The notes under the pieces: generated by a model
The model's database searches: none
Seen by the model: the letters and a program-made list of their open reading frames with translations, nothing else
What the model was told of the DNA's origin: nothing
Assembly (NCBI GenBank): GCA_028689665.1
Contig: JAQVCR010000012.1
Span: 1-64,000, forward strand
Origin: Muribaculaceae bacterium
Lineage (GTDB): Bacteria > Bacteroidota > Bacteroidia > Bacteroidales > Muribaculaceae
Direction of reading: 5' to 3'
Length of the DNA: 64,000 nucleotides
Made by a program: the position numbers and the translations under genes
Part shown: positions 1 to 12,100 of the stretch, piece by piece
Layout of the letters: the number at the start of each line of letters is the position of its first letter
How positions within the stretch are numbered: the first letter of the stretch is position 1

Positions 1-205
1 CAAAAACAAGTAAACTTGTTTTGTGTTCTCCACTCATTTGCACTATCTTTAGATAAGATAGGCTGCACTCGGGAAAACAAAAACAAGTAAACTTGTTTTG
101 TGTTCTCCACTCATTTGCACTATCTTTAGATAAGATAGGCTGCACTCGGGAAAACAAAAACAAGTAAACTTGTTTTGTGTTCTCCACTCATTTGCACTAT
201 CTTTG
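1..205 (+). repeat. 77-bp tandem repeat array A (promoter-bearing), upstream of the phosphodiester glycosidase gene
   Basis: Direct copies of one 77-bp unit begin at 1, 78 and 155; the third is cut short at about 205 where unique sequence starts. The first two copies are identical by eye. Each unit holds a 9-2-9 palindrome (3-22 in copy 1), a TTTG that overlaps its right arm, and 20 nt later TATCTTTA or TATCTTTG, which is the Bacteroidota promoter layout. Only the last copy has the full TATCTTTG. The window begins inside the array, so more copies may lie to the left. There are no spacers, so it is not a CRISPR. The same unit recurs at 2746-2976. Confidence 0.95.
174..205 (+). promoter_or_regulatory. 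Promoter of the phosphodiester glycosidase gene, within the last copy of array A
   Basis: TTTG at 174-177, 20 nt, then TATCTTTG at 198-205. This matches the Bacteroidota -33/-7 consensus exactly. Transcription would begin near 211, giving a leader of about 40 nt before the ATG at 252. Confidence 0.8.
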
Positions 206-251
206 CCCCATAAAAATTTAGTAATTATACTTTTAGAATTAATCAACTATC

Positions 252-2693
252 ATGAAACGACTGCTCAGACCTTCTTTAATGCTTCTTTTGGGAGTTGCTC
301 TATCGGCAAATGCGGGATCTATCAACATTCAGGGGACAGAATATCCTGTCGATACAATTCAGCACTCAAAAGTGGGGCCCGGAACAATCTACACAAAACT
401 ACGAATCGACGATGCAACGTATCCGTTGGATATACACATGCTTAAAGTCGATCTAAACAATCAATATATTAGATGCGAGACTCTTCTCGCTAAAGATTCT
501 ATTATCACCGGCGAGAAGCCGACGGAATTAGCCGTAAGAAAAAGCACCGACAAAAAGCTTTATTTTGCCGGAACAAATGCCGACGGATTCCGTAACGCTC
601 CCAACGGGAAATCGGGATACCCGTATACCGCAATGGTGGTGAAGGGCGAAATTGCTACCCGACCCATTTATCGCTCGGTGGTGGCTTTCGATTTAGAGAA
701 GACTCCTTATTTTGGTTTTGTAGATTTCAAAGGGGAAGTGTCGGTAAATGGTAAATCAATTGCCATCAACGACATAAATGCCGATTGGAGTGAGGAGGAT
801 TTAGTGTTTTTCAATCAGCTCAATGGCAAAAGTACTCACATGAAAGGAGATCGCACTGAGGTGCTTATCGAGTTACTCCCTGCCGAAAAGTGGCTGGTGA
901 ACACAAAAATGGCGTTTAAGGTTGTTTCGGTAAACAGCGATAAGGGTAATACTGTGATAAATCCCGGGCAAGCTGTGTTGTCGGGTATTGGAAATGCAAA
1001 AGCGTTTCTAAGTTCGCTAAAAGCTGGCGATACGGGAGAGCTTGATATTTCTTTACCGTTTGAAGGGATGCCGGCGTCGCCCATCATAGATGAATTGTCG
1101 GGTGCCGACAGAATTATCCTCTCGGATGGAGAGGTATGGGATAACGATTGGGCAGAAAGACACCCGCGCACCGGTTTTGGATATTCTGCCGACAAGAAAA
1201 CAATGTATTATTGCATCGTCGACGGACGCATTTCTCGTTCGGTAGGAGTTACTACAAAACAATTGGTGGATATTATGAAAAGTGCAGGGGCAAACTCAGC
1301 CATCAATTTCGATGGCGGTGGTTCTTCGTGTATGTATATTCGGGGAATGGGGCAGGTAAACAATCCTAGCGATGGCGTAGAAAGAAGTGTGCCGAGTGGT
1401 ATGTTTGTATCTACCGATGCGCCTCAAGATAATGAAATAGCCGAAATTGGAGCAATAGTAACGCGAATAAGAATACCACAATTCTGTGTGTACAAACCCA
1501 CAATTTACGGTTTCAACAAATATGGAATTTTAGTTGATACCGATGTTAAAGATTTTACATTGACATGCACCTCCGACTATGGGACAATTAAAGATAATAC
1601 TTCTTTTGTGGCTTTGGCAGTGGGTAATTATGAAATAGGTTGCTCTTACAACGGACACACAATATCGATTCCGGTAACCATAGAGCCTCTAGCCGGAATA
1701 GAAATGCGCAATTCAAGTGTAATCAATGATACATATCTCGATTTCAAAATGGGAGTCGATGCCACACTCAATGGAAATAAAATACCGGTTAATCCGGATT
1801 GCATATCATGGACTGCCGACGATTTATCTATTCTTGAGCTGGATACAAAAAATGGCTCATTCCGTGGAATTAAAGACGGCACAACTAATGTGAGTGGAAG
1901 TATTGGCGATTTCTCAGGCTCGATGACTGTCATTGTGGAGAAACCTACTGCAAGAGTAATGCCGATAGATCCGAAAATAGATCTTTCTACATGGAAAATA
2001 TCGCAAGTCGGTGGAAAGAATATCACTGCTACGCCTCTCGAAAATGGAATGAACCTTGCATATACCGGAGCTTCGGGTCGTGGACCAAATATCAAGCTAA
2101 CCAAGAAATTAAAAATATGGAGTCTGCCCGATACAATAAGAGTCCGAATTAATCCAAATGGAAGTCCGGTAAATAAAATTACTCTTTCTATCGCTCCCAG
2201 CGTCGGAGCTTTGATTGTATGCTCAAAAGATATAAGCAACCTCAACGAATTGACTACTATTGATTTTGTGGTGAAGAATATCTGTGGTGGCGAGGATATT
2301 AGCAATTTCCCTCTTCATCTCAACAGCATATTGCTTTCGATGAATCCGGCAGAAGTAGGAAAGGAATATTCTATCGAAATACCGGGGATAGAGGCAGTTT
2401 ATAAGGCAGTGCCGAGTGGAACCGGTGTGGAACAAATTATGTCGACCGACAAGTCGTTTAAATTATACCCCAATCCCGTAAGACAAGGAGAATCGGTTAT
2501 AATCGCTACCGAAAACAGCTCAGATGCAACAGTCGTGGTATCAAATATTACCGGACAAGAAATGATTCGTGAAAACTTCAATGCCGCAGATAGCCGGATT
2601 TCGTTATCGACAGCTACTCTAACAAGTGGGATATACACAATTTCGTTAATGCAAAATGGAGTATCAAAGACTGCCAAATTGATTATAAAATAA
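252..2693 (+). CDS. Secreted phosphodiester glycosidase (NAGPA-like) with Ig-like region and T9SS C-terminal domain
   Basis: 813 residues. An N-terminal signal peptide (about 1-21, ending at ANA) is followed by a domain of the NAGPA/DUF2233 phosphodiester glycosidase family (about 60-390). The family signature NFDGGGSS is present, with its Asp near residue 354. A stretch around 505-565 looks like a bacterial Ig-like (Big_2) fold. The last 80 residues start with FKLYPNPV and end in KLIIK, as in type A sorting domains of the type IX secretion system, so the protein is probably exported to the cell surface or released. The family cleaves GlcNAc-phosphodiester-type bonds; the substrate here is unknown. 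It is monocistronic, with its own promoter and terminator, and is bracketed by two arrays of the 77-bp repeat. Confidence 0.85.
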   Translation: MKRLLRPSLMLLLGVALSANAGSINIQGTEYPVDTIQHSKVGPGTIYTKLRIDDATYPLDIHMLKVDLNNQYIRCETLLAKDSIITGEKPTELAVRKSTDKKLYFAGTNADGFRNAPNGKSGYPYTAMVVKGEIATRPIYRSVVAFDLEKTPYFGFVDFKGEVSVNGKSIAINDINADWSEEDLVFFNQLNGKSTHMKGDRTEVLIELLPAEKWLVNTKMAFKVVSVNSDKGNTVINPGQAVLSGIGNAKAFLSSLKAGDTGELDISLPFEGMPASPIIDELSGADRIILSDGEVWDNDWAERHPRTGFGYSADKKTMYYCIVDGRISRSVGVTTKQLVDIMKSAGANSAINFDGGGSSCMYIRGMGQVNNPSDGVERSVPSGMFVSTDAPQDNEIAEIGAIVTRIRIPQFCVYKPTIYGFNKYGILVDTDVKDFTLTCTSDYGTIKDNTSFVALAVGNYEIGCSYNGHTISIPVTIEPLAGIEMRNSSVINDTYLDFKMGVDATLNGNKIPVNPDCISWTADDLSILELDTKNGSFRGIKDGTTNVSGSIGDFSGSMTVIVEKPTARVMPIDPKIDLSTWKISQVGGKNITATPLENGMNLAYTGASGRGPNIKLTKKLKIWSLPDTIRVRINPNGSPVNKITLSIAPSVGALIVCSKDISNLNELTTIDFVVKNICGGEDISNFPLHLNSILLSMNPAEVGKEYSIEIPGIEAVYKAVPSGTGVEQIMSTDKSFKLYPNPVRQGESVIIATENSSDATVVVSNITGQEMIRENFNAADSRISLSTATLTSGIYTISLMQNGVSKTAKLIIK

Positions 2694-2703
2694 AACATAA
2701 AAA

Positions 2704-2745
2704 GCGGTGAATGGGATTTGAAATCTATATTCGCCGCATTTTTTT
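2704..2745 (+). terminator. Rho-independent terminator after the phosphodiester glycosidase gene
   Basis: Stem GCGGTGAAT (2704-2712) pairs with ATTCGCCGC (2729-2737), with one G-T pair, and is followed by ATTTTTTT. It lies 10 nt after the stop codon. Confidence 0.75.
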
Positions 2746-2976
2746 GATAATACAGGCTGCACTCGGGAAAACAAAAACAAGTAAACTTGTTTTGTGTTCT
2801 CCACTCATTTGCACTATCTTTAGATAAGATAGGCTGCACTCGGGAAAACAAAAACAAGTAAACTTGTTTTGTGTTCTCCACTCATTTGCACTATCTTTGG
2901 ATAAGATAGGCAGCACTCGGGAAAACAAAAACAAGTAAACTTGTTTTGTGTTCTCCACTCATTTGCACTATCTTTG
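2746..2976 (+). repeat. 77-bp tandem repeat array B (promoter-bearing), upstream of metG
   Basis: Three copies of the same 77-bp unit as array A, in the same orientation, with the palindrome-bearing segment starting at 2772, 2849 and 2926. Copy 1 has TATCTTTA at the -7 position; copies 2 and 3 have TATCTTTG, so two of the three are full-consensus promoters. One base differs in the link before copy 3 (GGCAGCAC in place of GGCTGCAC). The array stops just before metG, as array A stops just before its gene. Confidence 0.95.
2945..2976 (+). promoter_or_regulatory. Promoter of metG within the last copy of array B
   Basis: TTTG at 2945-2948, 20 nt, TATCTTTG at 2969-2976. The expected start near 2982 leaves a leader of about 24 nt before the metG ATG at 3006. 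Confidence 0.8.
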
Positions 2977-3005
2977 CACCATAAAATGAAAAAAAAATAA
3001 GCGAA

Positions 3006-5045
3006 ATGGAAAAAAAATTTGCTCGCACCCTTGTTACTACTGCTCTCCCTTATGCTAATGGTCCTGTACACATAGGGCACTTGGCTGGCGTATACATTCC
3101 AGCCGATATATATACTCGTTATCTTCGCCTTAAAGAGGAAGATGTGATAATGATTGGTGGCAGCGATGAACATGGTGTGCCTATTACCATAAAGGCAAAG
3201 GCAGAGGGGGTTACTCCTCAAGATATTGTCGATCGCTATCATACTATAATAAAAGATTCTTTTGAGGAGCTTGGCATCTCTTTTGATGTGTATTCTCGCA
3301 CTACCTCAGAAATTCATAAAAAGACGGCTAGCGACTTTTTTAGTAAGCTCTACAAGAAAGGTGAGTTTATCGAAAAGACTTCTATGCAATATTATGACGA
3401 AGATGCTAATCAATTTCTTGCCGATCGCTATATCGTAGGTACTTGCCCTCATTGTAAAAATGAACGTGCTTATGGCGACCAATGCGAGGCTTGTGGAACA
3501 TCTCTAAATGCTACCGACCTTATCGACCCTCGTTCGGCAATAACGGGTAATCGCCCTGTCTTGCGAGAGACTAAACACTGGTATCTGCCTCTAGATAAGT
3601 GGGAGCCAAAACTAAGAGAGTGGATTCTTGAAGGTCATAAAGAATGGAAGCCAAATGTGTATGGACAATGCAAATCGTGGCTCGACCTAGGATTGCAACC
3701 TCGTGCTGTGAGCCGCGACCTCGACTGGGGTGTTCCTGTCCCGGTAGAAGGCGCCGAAGGGAAGGTGCTTTATGTGTGGTTTGATGCTCCTATCGGATAT
3801 ATCTCGAATACAAAAGAGCTGCTGCCCGACACTTGGGAAGATTATTGGAAAAAGAAAGATACTCGTATAATCAACTTTATTGGTAAGGATAATATTGTGT
3901 TCCACTGTATCGTGTTTCCTGCAATGCTTATGGCTGATGGCGACTATCAACTTCCTGAAAATGTACCGGCAAATGAGTTCTTGAATCTTGAAGGCGATAA
4001 GATTTCTACATCAAGAAATTGGGCTGTATGGCTTCATGAATATTTAAAGGAATTTCCGGGCAAGCAAGATGTTCTACGCTATGTGCTTACTGCAAATGCT
4101 CCCGAAACTAAAGATAACGACTTTACATGGCGCGATTTTCAAGCTCGCAACAATAATGAGCTAGTGGCAATTCTTGGAAATTTCATAAATCGTGCGCTTG
4201 TATTGACACATAAATATTATAAAGGAATAGTCCCTGCATTAGGCGAATTGACCGACTATGATAATGCTACGTTAGCCGAGTTTAAAGACGTTAAGGCTGC
4301 TTTAGAGAATAATATCGAGACATTCCGTTTCCGTGAAGCGCTAAAAGATGCCATGAATCTTGCACGCATCGGAAATAAATACTTGGCAGATACCGAGCCG
4401 TGGAAATTGGCAAAGACCGATATGACACGTGTCGATACTATAATGTATATCGCATTGCAGATTTCGGCTAATCTTGCTATCGCTTTTGAGCCTTTCTTGC
4501 CATTTACAACAGCTAAACTTCGCAATATCCTTAATATTAAGAGCTGTGAGTGGGAAGAGCTTGGAAGTATCAATTTGCTAAGCACAGGAGCCACAATTAA
4601 TGCTCCCGAATTACTGTTTGAGAAAATTGAAGACAGTGTAATTGAAGAGCAGATTGCAAAACTCAACAGAACGAAAGAAGAAAATCTGATAAAGAACTAT
4701 AAGCCGGCACCCGTAGCCGATAATATTCCGTTCGACGATTTTATGAAACTTGATGTGAGAGTAGGGCGTATATTGGAATGCACCAAAGTGCCAAAAGCCG
4801 ACAAGCTACTCCAATTTAAGATAGATGACGGAATGGGAGGACGCACAATTGTGTCGGGTATAGCAAAATATTATGCCCCCGAAGACTTAATTGGAAAAGA
4901 CGTGTGCTTCGTTGCCAATTTTGCCCCGCGCAAACTAAAAGGCATCGAGTCGCAAGGAATGATATTAAGTGCTGAGAATCCCGATGGCTCATTAGTAGTT
5001 ATCGGACCTCAAGGAGAGGTAAAGGCAGGATCGCAAGTAAAGTAA
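3006..5045 (+). CDS. metG: Methionyl-tRNA synthetase
   Basis: 679 residues, full length for the homodimeric MetRS type. It charges tRNA-Met (initiator and elongator) with methionine in the cytoplasm. The class I HIGH motif is at residues 22-25 (VHIGH) and the KMSKS-like loop near 332 (KISTS). A zinc knuckle with two CxxC pairs (CPHC and CEAC) follows near residue 145. The C-terminal part from about 576 is a tRNA-binding OB-fold domain (from [12 protein letters not shown]), the dimerising module of long MetRS forms. It is transcribed alone from the repeat-borne promoter and ends at a clear terminator. ATG at 3006 is the only start that keeps the conserved N-terminus. Confidence 0.97.
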
Positions 5046-5106: not shown

Positions 5107-5192
5107 TCTATATATGCACAAATTTTACCTATATAATAACTTATTTTAGTTATAAATAAGTTATGTATAAAAATTATATGTAACTTTGCAAA

Positions 5193-9108: not shown

Positions 9109-12100
9109 ATGCCAGTTGAAACAGCAAAAAATAAAGTTCCATTTTATCAAACGTGGATGACAATTGTATATAATTCTGATTTACAAATTATTGAAATCAT
9201 AAATCCACAGCATTGTATGTTGCTTTCGCATCCTGCCGATTCCATTCTTGGCTTGAACCCCGAAGAATTAGAGCAAATCACCGAAGGTCCAAACAAAGAG
9301 TCGGCACATATAATAGCAAAGAATGTGCGTCGTGCTATGGCTCAAAACCGCAATGTGTATTTTGAATATGCAACAGCTCACAACGACGGCACCACCACCT
9401 ATGCAGTGTGCTATGCCGAGAAAGCTCCCGACGGAAATCTGTATTTTAATGTAATCAAAATCGACGAAGAGAATATCTTTGAAGCGCGCGCCGGATTTAC
9501 TAACTATGTGATCAACACCACCATGAATAATATCTCGGTGGGGGTGTATATGCGACATATTAGTGATAAAGGCAAGAAAAAATATATACTATTCAACGAC
9601 GTCGTTAAAAGTCTTTATGAGTCCGATGATATTCAATCGTCGGAGCATTGGAATCAAGCCGACGAAGACTTAGCCGATGAGAAGGCTTTAGAGCTACGCG
9701 ACCCGATTAAAATAGAAAAGGTGCTGCGCGACAGCGACGGAAACATAAAGAGGTGGCTGGTAGTAACCAAAAAGAAGATTAACAGTCGCGCGTCGGGAAT
9801 GTATGTAATCACCACCGTTATAGATATCACAAAGCGTCGAGAGAACGAAATATTGATTGAAAAGCAATTTGCGTTGCTCGATTCTATGTATGAGCATCTG
9901 CCCGAAGGCATTTTGATTTACTCTCGCGATGGCAAGCTGATCACTTACAATAAGAAGATTGTCGATCTGTTAGGCGTTGAAGATGCTAAATCGGTGCTGA
10001 AACGAAATGTTTTTGATGAGCCATACGTCCCCGAAGATATAAAGCAAAAACTACGAGCCGGACAGAACAGTGAGTACGAAATAACTTACGACTTTAGCAA
10101 AACGGAGAATTTGGATCTCCTAAATGTGCAAAAAGGCAGAAGAATATTGGCTATAAAGGCTGTTGTAGTAAGAAATAGCAAAGGTGAAATCGACGGCTAT
10201 TTGCAGATTTGTGAAGATATAACCGATAAGCGTACCACCGAACGTGCGCTGCAAGAAAAGCACAAACTAATAGACACAATATATAATACTATCCCAATGG
10301 GGATAGAACTATATGATAAAAAAGGAACGTTACTAGAATTTAATGACTACAACACACAGCTCATGGGCTTTAAAGACAAGAGCGAAATTGTGGGCATAAA
10401 TCTATACGACGATCCAAATATACCTGAAGATGTAAAAGAAGGTATCCGAAAAGGTAACAATATAGATATAACGCAGGAATATAATTATGAACTAGCGAAG
10501 CAAGACTTCTATGATTCGACAAATGAAGGCTCTAAATTCCTGAATATAAAGTCGGCAGTAATTCATAACGAGGCCGACGAAATTAGTGGGCATCTGTTGG
10601 TATATCAAGATCGCACCCAAGATGTTAATCGAGAGCGATTACTAGAAGAGACTCTGGCAAAATTCTCCTCAATGTTCTCCTCGATGATGAATGGAGTGGA
10701 ATATTATAGTGCCGACGGCAAGTTATTAGATTGCAACAATGCCGATTTACGCATTTTTGGTATCGACAAAAAAGAAGAATTTCTGAGCGGAAAAGTAAAT
10801 ATCTTTGATAATCCCAATGTAAAGAAAGAGGATCTGCTCAAAGTCAAGAAAGGCGAAGTGTTAAGGCTAAAGATCTTGTACGACTTTGATAAAGTAAAAC
10901 ATCACAACTATTTCTCATCTACAAAGCGTGGTAAAATTGCGCTTGATGTAATTGTGTCGCCTATAATCACCGACGATAATGAGCATCTGGGCTATACTGT
11001 CGAGATAGAAGATATTACCGAGCGAGTAGCTAACGACAGAAAACTTAAAGAAAGCCTGACTAAATTTTCGTCAATGTTCAGCTCTATGACAAATGGAGTG
11101 GAAATATATGATAAAGACGGAATATTAATAGATTGCAACGACGCCGATATGAAAATATTCGGAGTCGCAAATAAAAGCAATTTTGTTAACGGCAATGTAG
11201 CACTTTTCAACAACCCCAATATAAAGAAAGTAGATGTGGAAAAACTACTTCGCGGCGAGATGGTAACATTAAGTATGACTTACGATTTCGACGTGGTAAA
11301 AGAGAGAGATTACTATATCACACAGAAAAGAGGGAAGATACATCTTGATATCAATGTTGCGCCAATGATAGTAGGCGAGAACGACTTTATAGGTTATATA
11401 GTAGAAATGAACGATGTAACTGAAAAAGTGAATCGCGAGCGACTATATGAAGAGACGGCAATAAAACTGTCGGCAATGTTCAACTCTATGACAAATGGCG
11501 TAGAGATATACAACAAAGATGGTGTGATGATCGATTGCAACGATGCCGATATTAAAATCTTTGGCATAGAGCATAAAGAAGATTTAATAAATAGTGCAAT
11601 ATCAATATATGATAATCCCAATGTGCCTTATGAGAGCCTAAGCAGCCTGTTAAAGGGAGAATCGTTATCGGTAAAGATTGAATACGACTTTGAAACGATA
11701 AAAGCCACTAAATATTTCCCTACAAGTAAGTCGGGCAAGATATTTATTCAGGTGAAATTCTCGGCAATGTATGATAACAATAATGAGTTTATGGGTTATG
11801 TAGCCGAAATCGACGATATTACCGATATTACATTAAAAGACATTGAGCTAAAGAACACGCAGCGAGAGTTGAGTCTGGCAATGGAAGCCGGCAAGATATC
11901 GGCATGGAACTATGATGTGAAATCTAATAGTTTTGTCGTGCTAAACAATAATGAGCTATCCGGGAAAAGTATATCGTGGAATCAAATTTTAAATGTAGTA
12001 TGTCAAGAAGATTATGAGCTGATTTCTACAACATTCAATGCTATTAAAAGCGGCGAGAAAGATAATGCGAAAATCGTACTTAGAGATAGCGAAGAAGGAG

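Follow-up and report, generated by a model that had tools for sequence, protein, structure and literature searches.

The 77-bp unit that is repeated in front of metG and of a secreted glycosidase gene in the window (the whole stretch of Muribaculaceae DNA analysed, 64,000 nucleotides) belongs to a real, order-wide family of hairpin promoters, apparently undescribed, which is related in kind to MITEs and REP elements, yet fails the defining RAYT test. No description of this element family was found in the open-access literature. We consider it likely that it represents an undescribed MITE/REP-like mobile promoter, that is, a dispersed DNA hairpin of the Bacteroidales which supplies promoters and spreads within genomes.

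The presence of two arrays of one 77-bp unit had been proposed, and both Tandem Repeats Finder (positions 1-204, 2.6 copies, 100%; positions 2742-2976, 3.1 copies, 96%) and direct reading of the window confirmed them. Five occurrences of the 36-base core were counted in the window and none in 100 shuffles, thus it is not expected by chance, and the five complete units differ from each other by 0-4 bases. The three copies assigned to each array are indeed present in array 2; in the case of array 1 the number is uncertain, since this array is cut by the contig start (window position 1 is the first base of contig C13, C13:1). The features are the following:

1-205, + strand: array 1, which precedes the NAGPA-type gene and consists of a truncated unit (1-51, at the contig start) and two further units (54-128, 131-205)
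198-205, + strand: -7 box TATCTTTG of the last unit of array 1, with TTTG at 174-177 and a spacer of 20
252-2693, + strand: phosphodiester glycosidase (NAGPA, PF09992) with a type IX secretion tail (PF18962), after array 1
2704-2745, + strand: terminator-like hairpin with a T7 tail, abutting array 2 (z -4.35)
2746-2976, + strand: array 2, upstream of metG; units 2748-2822, 2825-2899 and 2902-2976
2903-2911, + strand: 5' arm AAGATAGGC of the last unit of array 2
2924-2948, + strand: inner stem-loop region of the last unit of array 2, centre ACAAGTAAACTTGT; its sequence varies between genomes, its palindromy is kept
2945-2948, + strand: TTTG, the -33 element in the last unit of array 2, at a position in keeping with the spacing statistics
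2965-2976, + strand: 3' arm GC-A-CTATCTT of the last unit of array 2, overlapping the -7 box TATCTTTG (2969-2976)
3006-5045, + strand: methionyl-tRNA synthetase (metG), after array 2

The motif TTTG-N20-TATCTTT(A/G) could be read in each unit of the window, as stated in the original prediction, and the arrays do end just before genes, the starts at 252 and 3006 lying 47 and 29 nt past the last box, respectively. The complete TAnnTTTG is found in the arrays only at 198 in array 1 (its sole occurrence between 1 and 252) and at 2892 and 2969 in array 2, while the remaining three unit copies terminate in TATCTTTA. Since TAnnTTTG occurs between the terminator-like hairpin and the metG start only within array 2, this array would be the sole visible promoter for metG, and transcription is expected to start near 2983. 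An AT-rich 21-bp tandem repeat is located directly after metG (window 5122-5164).

The sigma-ABfr consensus of the Bacteroidetes consists of TAnnTTTG at -7 and TTTG near -33, and in B. thetaiotaomicron the most frequent 5' UTR is 23 nt long (PMC7366714). The -7 box at the unit end, which is formed by the 3' arm of the hairpin, agrees with this published consensus. At -33, TTG was present at a spacing of 18-21 (mostly 19-20) in 115 of the 183 distinct units, thus it is not universal; the control spacings gave 6/183 and 31/183. An open reading frame starts within 120 nt on the promoter side of 132 of 164 arrays and on the other side of 33 of 149 (p=6e-26), which bears out the expected placement upstream of genes in one orientation, and tRNA genes, which follow three arrays, account for some of the arrays with no nearby reading frame. 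The median distance from box to ATG is 28.5 nt; since the start is assumed about 7 nt past the box, the leader would be of similar length. Taken together, these features suggest that the unit functions as a promoter for the downstream gene. Just downstream of the element, a near-identical sequence (CTCGAAATATAGTAAATAAAGCGACAGCTTTCTG...) occurs in three Prevotellaceae/Bacteroidales contigs (L150, L153, L190); it may represent a conserved leader or small RNA for which the element provides the promoter. An array of three units in L263 has an Rfam match to FopS (10870-10938, - strand), a group of paralogous sRNAs from Bacteroidetes, at a distance of about 290 nt and on the opposite strand.

The unit recurs widely in its own genome and in related genomes, as had been anticipated. 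About 27 clear copies were detected at some 13-15 places of the own genome, a 2.30-Mb draft of 54 contigs and 87% completeness; these numbers are uncertain, since contigs C13, C19 and C32 begin and C39 and C16 finish inside arrays and one array contains an N-run. Wherever the downstream side of an array could be read (13 arrays), the array was found to face a gene or a tRNA. The genes concerned include saccharopine dehydrogenase, rpoN, dnaX, ybeY, mutS, fur, an Asp-Ala exchanger-type permease, a flavodoxin-ferredoxin protein, an acetyltransferase, a protein with a type IX secretion signal and a tRNA-Thr gene. The proposed co-regulation of metG and the glycosidase found no support in this miscellany of housekeeping genes and tRNAs. 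Near-identical units occupy unlinked genes with unlike flanks, and unrelated arrays have identical boundaries. Past the unit ends the flanks are unlike each other, therefore the unit itself is what was copied.

By BLAST the element was found in 38 of 198 genomes of the same family. Of the Bacteroidales genomes sampled (149), 16 gave matches to the covariance model, several of them at least about 30 each; with stricter filters, the model detected the element in none of the 246 other genomes of the phylum sample. The highest count in one genome was 71 copies. A pattern fixed only at both ends retrieved at least 120 stretches; among the matches listed (80), all belonged to Bacteroidales, and the covariance model confirmed every one. 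The carriers listed include Muribaculaceae, Prevotella, Bacteroides, Mediterranea, Parabacteroides, Tannerella, Barnesiella, Rikenellaceae and others. This distribution is lineage-specific, as the spreading cassette suggested earlier would show. No viral contig matched the end pattern and no plasmid matched the unit, and carriage by phages or plasmids was rejected. Two records named 'Bacteriophage sp.' (L300 and L301; MT837172 and MT838739) do carry the element; both are metagenomic fragments with no evident phage gene, L300 encodes bacterial-type proteins, and at least this one looks like misfiled bacterial DNA.

The sites differ between close relatives. Among 30 relatives inspected, the element stands upstream of metG only in the genome studied here and is absent in 29; the element-free relatives include species with 89-92% identical MetG, in which ordinary -7 boxes are used. 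Congeneric genomes contain 71 and 8 copies in one case and 31 and 7 in another, and three arrays of genome G224 are missing at the syntenic positions in its sister species G337. Since copies precede different genes in different species, the element looks like a self-spreading promoter, and this comparative evidence points to its mobility. The resemblance of units within a genome and the shared boundaries of unrelated arrays could also be explained by an ancestral promoter architecture that does not move, gene conversion keeping its copies alike and slippage, which easily grows tandem arrays, multiplying them locally. However, such an origin is unlikely in view of the presence and absence at syntenic sites, the several-fold differences in copy number within genera and the near-identical units at unlinked loci with unlike flanks.

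Nearly every unit, of 63-86 bp across genomes, folds as one long imperfect hairpin. The outer stem is formed by AAGATAGGC paired with GC-A-CTATCTT, thus the 3' arm of the palindrome includes the -7 box. Inward follow a 3-bp stem (e.g. GGC/GCC, GCC/GGC, ATC/GAT, ACC/GGT), a conserved internal loop with CTC on either side and, innermost, an A/T-rich stem which is free in sequence and length. In 122 distinct units, double changes were found in 23 of 26 pairs, and 477 compensated cells were counted on an alignment that had been fitted to the covariance model, compared with 161 in shuffles and 26-90 with slid partners. As an independent check, units were selected solely by their ends; their interiors fold better than shuffles, with a mean z of -2.3, compared with -0.4 for the neighbouring DNA. 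RNAalifold found no structure on a MAFFT alignment, because MAFFT misaligns the variable stems. This covarying DNA palindrome, which spans the whole unit, is a point beyond the original prediction.

G-T pairs numbered 33 and A-C mismatches 94 over all helices, and 18 and 40, respectively, in the inner helices. Strong covariation without the G-U pairs typical of RNA suggests that the hairpin is kept as DNA, and a DNA hairpin, a cruciform or hairpin-templated repair would be favoured; the compensated stems might arise via such repair instead of selection. A hairpin acting in the transcript, as an RNA element such as a 5' leader, an attenuator or a small RNA, could be considered, as the predicted RNA hairpin is stable and inner promoters, if active, would transcribe the next unit. 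We regard this as very unlikely, and the RNA leader was rejected, since G-U pairs are not favoured, being rarer than A-C mismatches, and the elements also precede tRNAs. Moreover, a start 7 nt past the last box would leave the hairpin outside the main transcript, the hairpin is kept even in single units and no Rfam family overlaps the units searched. That the palindrome is a fixed regulatory site for a dimeric transcription factor, with the arrays marking a regulon of metG and the glycosidase, would suit the palindromic centre, the upstream position and the presence of more than one copy per promoter, but it is highly improbable and was rejected, since the stem sequence is not conserved (the centre changes completely between genomes yet stays palindromic, which a sequence-specific factor would not allow), the downstream genes are unrelated and metG is found in relatives without the element.

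The arrays had also been described as stacks of promoters, which could not be upheld, since the inner -7 boxes are usually damaged. In the sets that had not been selected for an intact box, TAnnTTTG was intact in the last copies of 76 of 85 arrays and in 29 of 79 inner copies (p=1e-12). An array is thus mainly one promoter with decayed predecessors. The inner boxes often show a one-base deletion of the same kind (CACTACTTT, CACTTCTTT, CACTAATTT). In 74 of 168 arrays (44%) a TAnnTTT lies to the left of the first unit, at most 25 nt away, compared with 3-10% of the control windows; upstream of this left box a CTC trace was seen in 30 of 73 cases and none in 43. In our interpretation, units were inserted or added downstream of a promoter that was already there, and takeover probably followed. 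Alternatively, the left -7 box in some arrays may be the remnant of a decayed unit. The flanking TAnnTTT repeat is a candidate target-site duplication, but it coincides with the element's own end, the -7 box itself. In one contig of G337 (C16; L280:4399-4549) the 5' end of the element, GCGAAAATAGG, resembles the start, GCGAAAATAGC, of the tRNA-Gly gene that it precedes, therefore box, leader and tRNA start appear to be duplicated around the unit.

On the preferred reading as a mobile hairpin promoter, the 77-bp unit would be a single copy of a non-coding DNA element of about 63-86 bp that is dispersed and forms a hairpin; the 3' arm of its palindrome would at the same time serve a sigma-ABfr-type promoter as its -7 box (TAnnTTTG). 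Position, consensus and leader length suggest that a gene or tRNA lying a few bases downstream of a copy obtains its promoter from it. Spreading within genomes would leave near-identical units at unlinked genes and sites that differ between sister species, and the element would tend to sit directly after an older -7 box. Arrays would form through added or duplicated further copies, the gene-nearest copy retaining the working promoter while the upstream boxes decay, a putative 'promoter takeover'. That the palindrome is conserved while G-U pairs are lacking suggests a DNA hairpin or cruciform as intermediate. More tentatively, and with considerable doubt, the element may land preferentially just downstream of existing -7 boxes, each insertion bringing a new box and moving the promoter forward; such a self-copying promoter would amount to a serial capture of host-gene transcription across the whole order via an unrecognised enzyme acting on folded DNA. 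If the mobile promoter is real, Bacteroidales of gut and rumen have many of their housekeeping genes and tRNAs driven by a repeat family that rewires promoters between sister species, which would explain assembly breaks and species-specific promoters; the element also offers natural promoter parts for Bacteroides-type hosts.

The question raised is which enzyme moves a DNA hairpin in genomes without RAYT. No RAYT (Y1, PF01797) was found in the own genome (87% complete) or in G218, G224, G305, G264 and G284, the richest genomes included, and within the family the presence of RAYT does not correlate with the element. Mobilisation by RAYT was rejected on these grounds. An integron or attC array was likewise rejected: no integron integrase (TIGR02249) exceeded the cut-off in 12 genomes, and below it only generic tyrosine recombinases appeared, as in the controls. 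No autonomous parent transposon was seen beside the copies inspected. The unit is short, non-coding and repeated, with terminal inverted repeats, as is characteristic of MITEs. REPs are defined as palindromes of 20-40 bp with a GTAG or CGTC tag, while the unit has 63-86 bp and neither tag is invariant in its consensus.

Several known systems share some of these properties. The Correia elements of Neisseria, the termini of which can supply promoters, and the BOX elements of pneumococcus, which are modular with a repeated boxB, are small and dispersed between genes like the element described here, but their sequences and hosts are unrelated to it. To our knowledge, neither forms head-to-tail arrays in which the last copy is the sole intact promoter. 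The putative mobile promoters ('promoter propagation in prokaryotes') are repeated promoter regions before unrelated genes; they constitute a generic computational class, whereas here a defined, structured, order-wide family is found. Integron attC sites are also imperfect DNA hairpins with a variable terminal stem in one repeated orientation, but the element has neither cassette genes nor, in its consensus, attC-type R boxes, and no integron integrase exceeded the cut-off. BrickBuilt, a MITE of Porphyromonas gingivalis, consists of leader, repeats and tail, with 23-nt internal repeats, IS-like terminal inverted repeats (GAGACC...) and bidirectional promoters (PMC4596501). It and other P. gingivalis MITEs resemble our element in being repeated intergenic elements of Bacteroidales with tandem repeats and a promoter activity usable by downstream genes (PMC4596501). 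In contrast, the repeated unit here is one hairpin of about 75 bp, the 3' arm of which holds its only promoter, directed outward, and its terminal inverted repeats are different.

The CGTC- and GTAG-tagged palindromes of REP/REPIN and RAYT systems are likewise short, extragenic, present in many copies with genome-specific variants, sometimes clustered, and probably moved as DNA hairpins (PMC3733652, PMC8049555). The element described here is about twice as long, promoter-bearing and gene-oriented, and its richest genomes have no RAYT. The CGTC tag is confined to some linkers, for example in L066 and L088. Short linkers, for instance GACTTCGTC or ACTTGCCGTC, stand before the units in some genomes (L066, L088, L095, L096, L097, L103); they pair with the adjoining arms and contain CGTC as in the CGTC-tagged REPs. 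A second unit subtype, with a GCATTATCTTTG or GCATTGTCTTTG end and linkers such as CCGTAGAACGGC, regularly follows the first one in the same array (G224:C7:260-328, G224:C10:8607-8677 and G224:C2:20897-20964).
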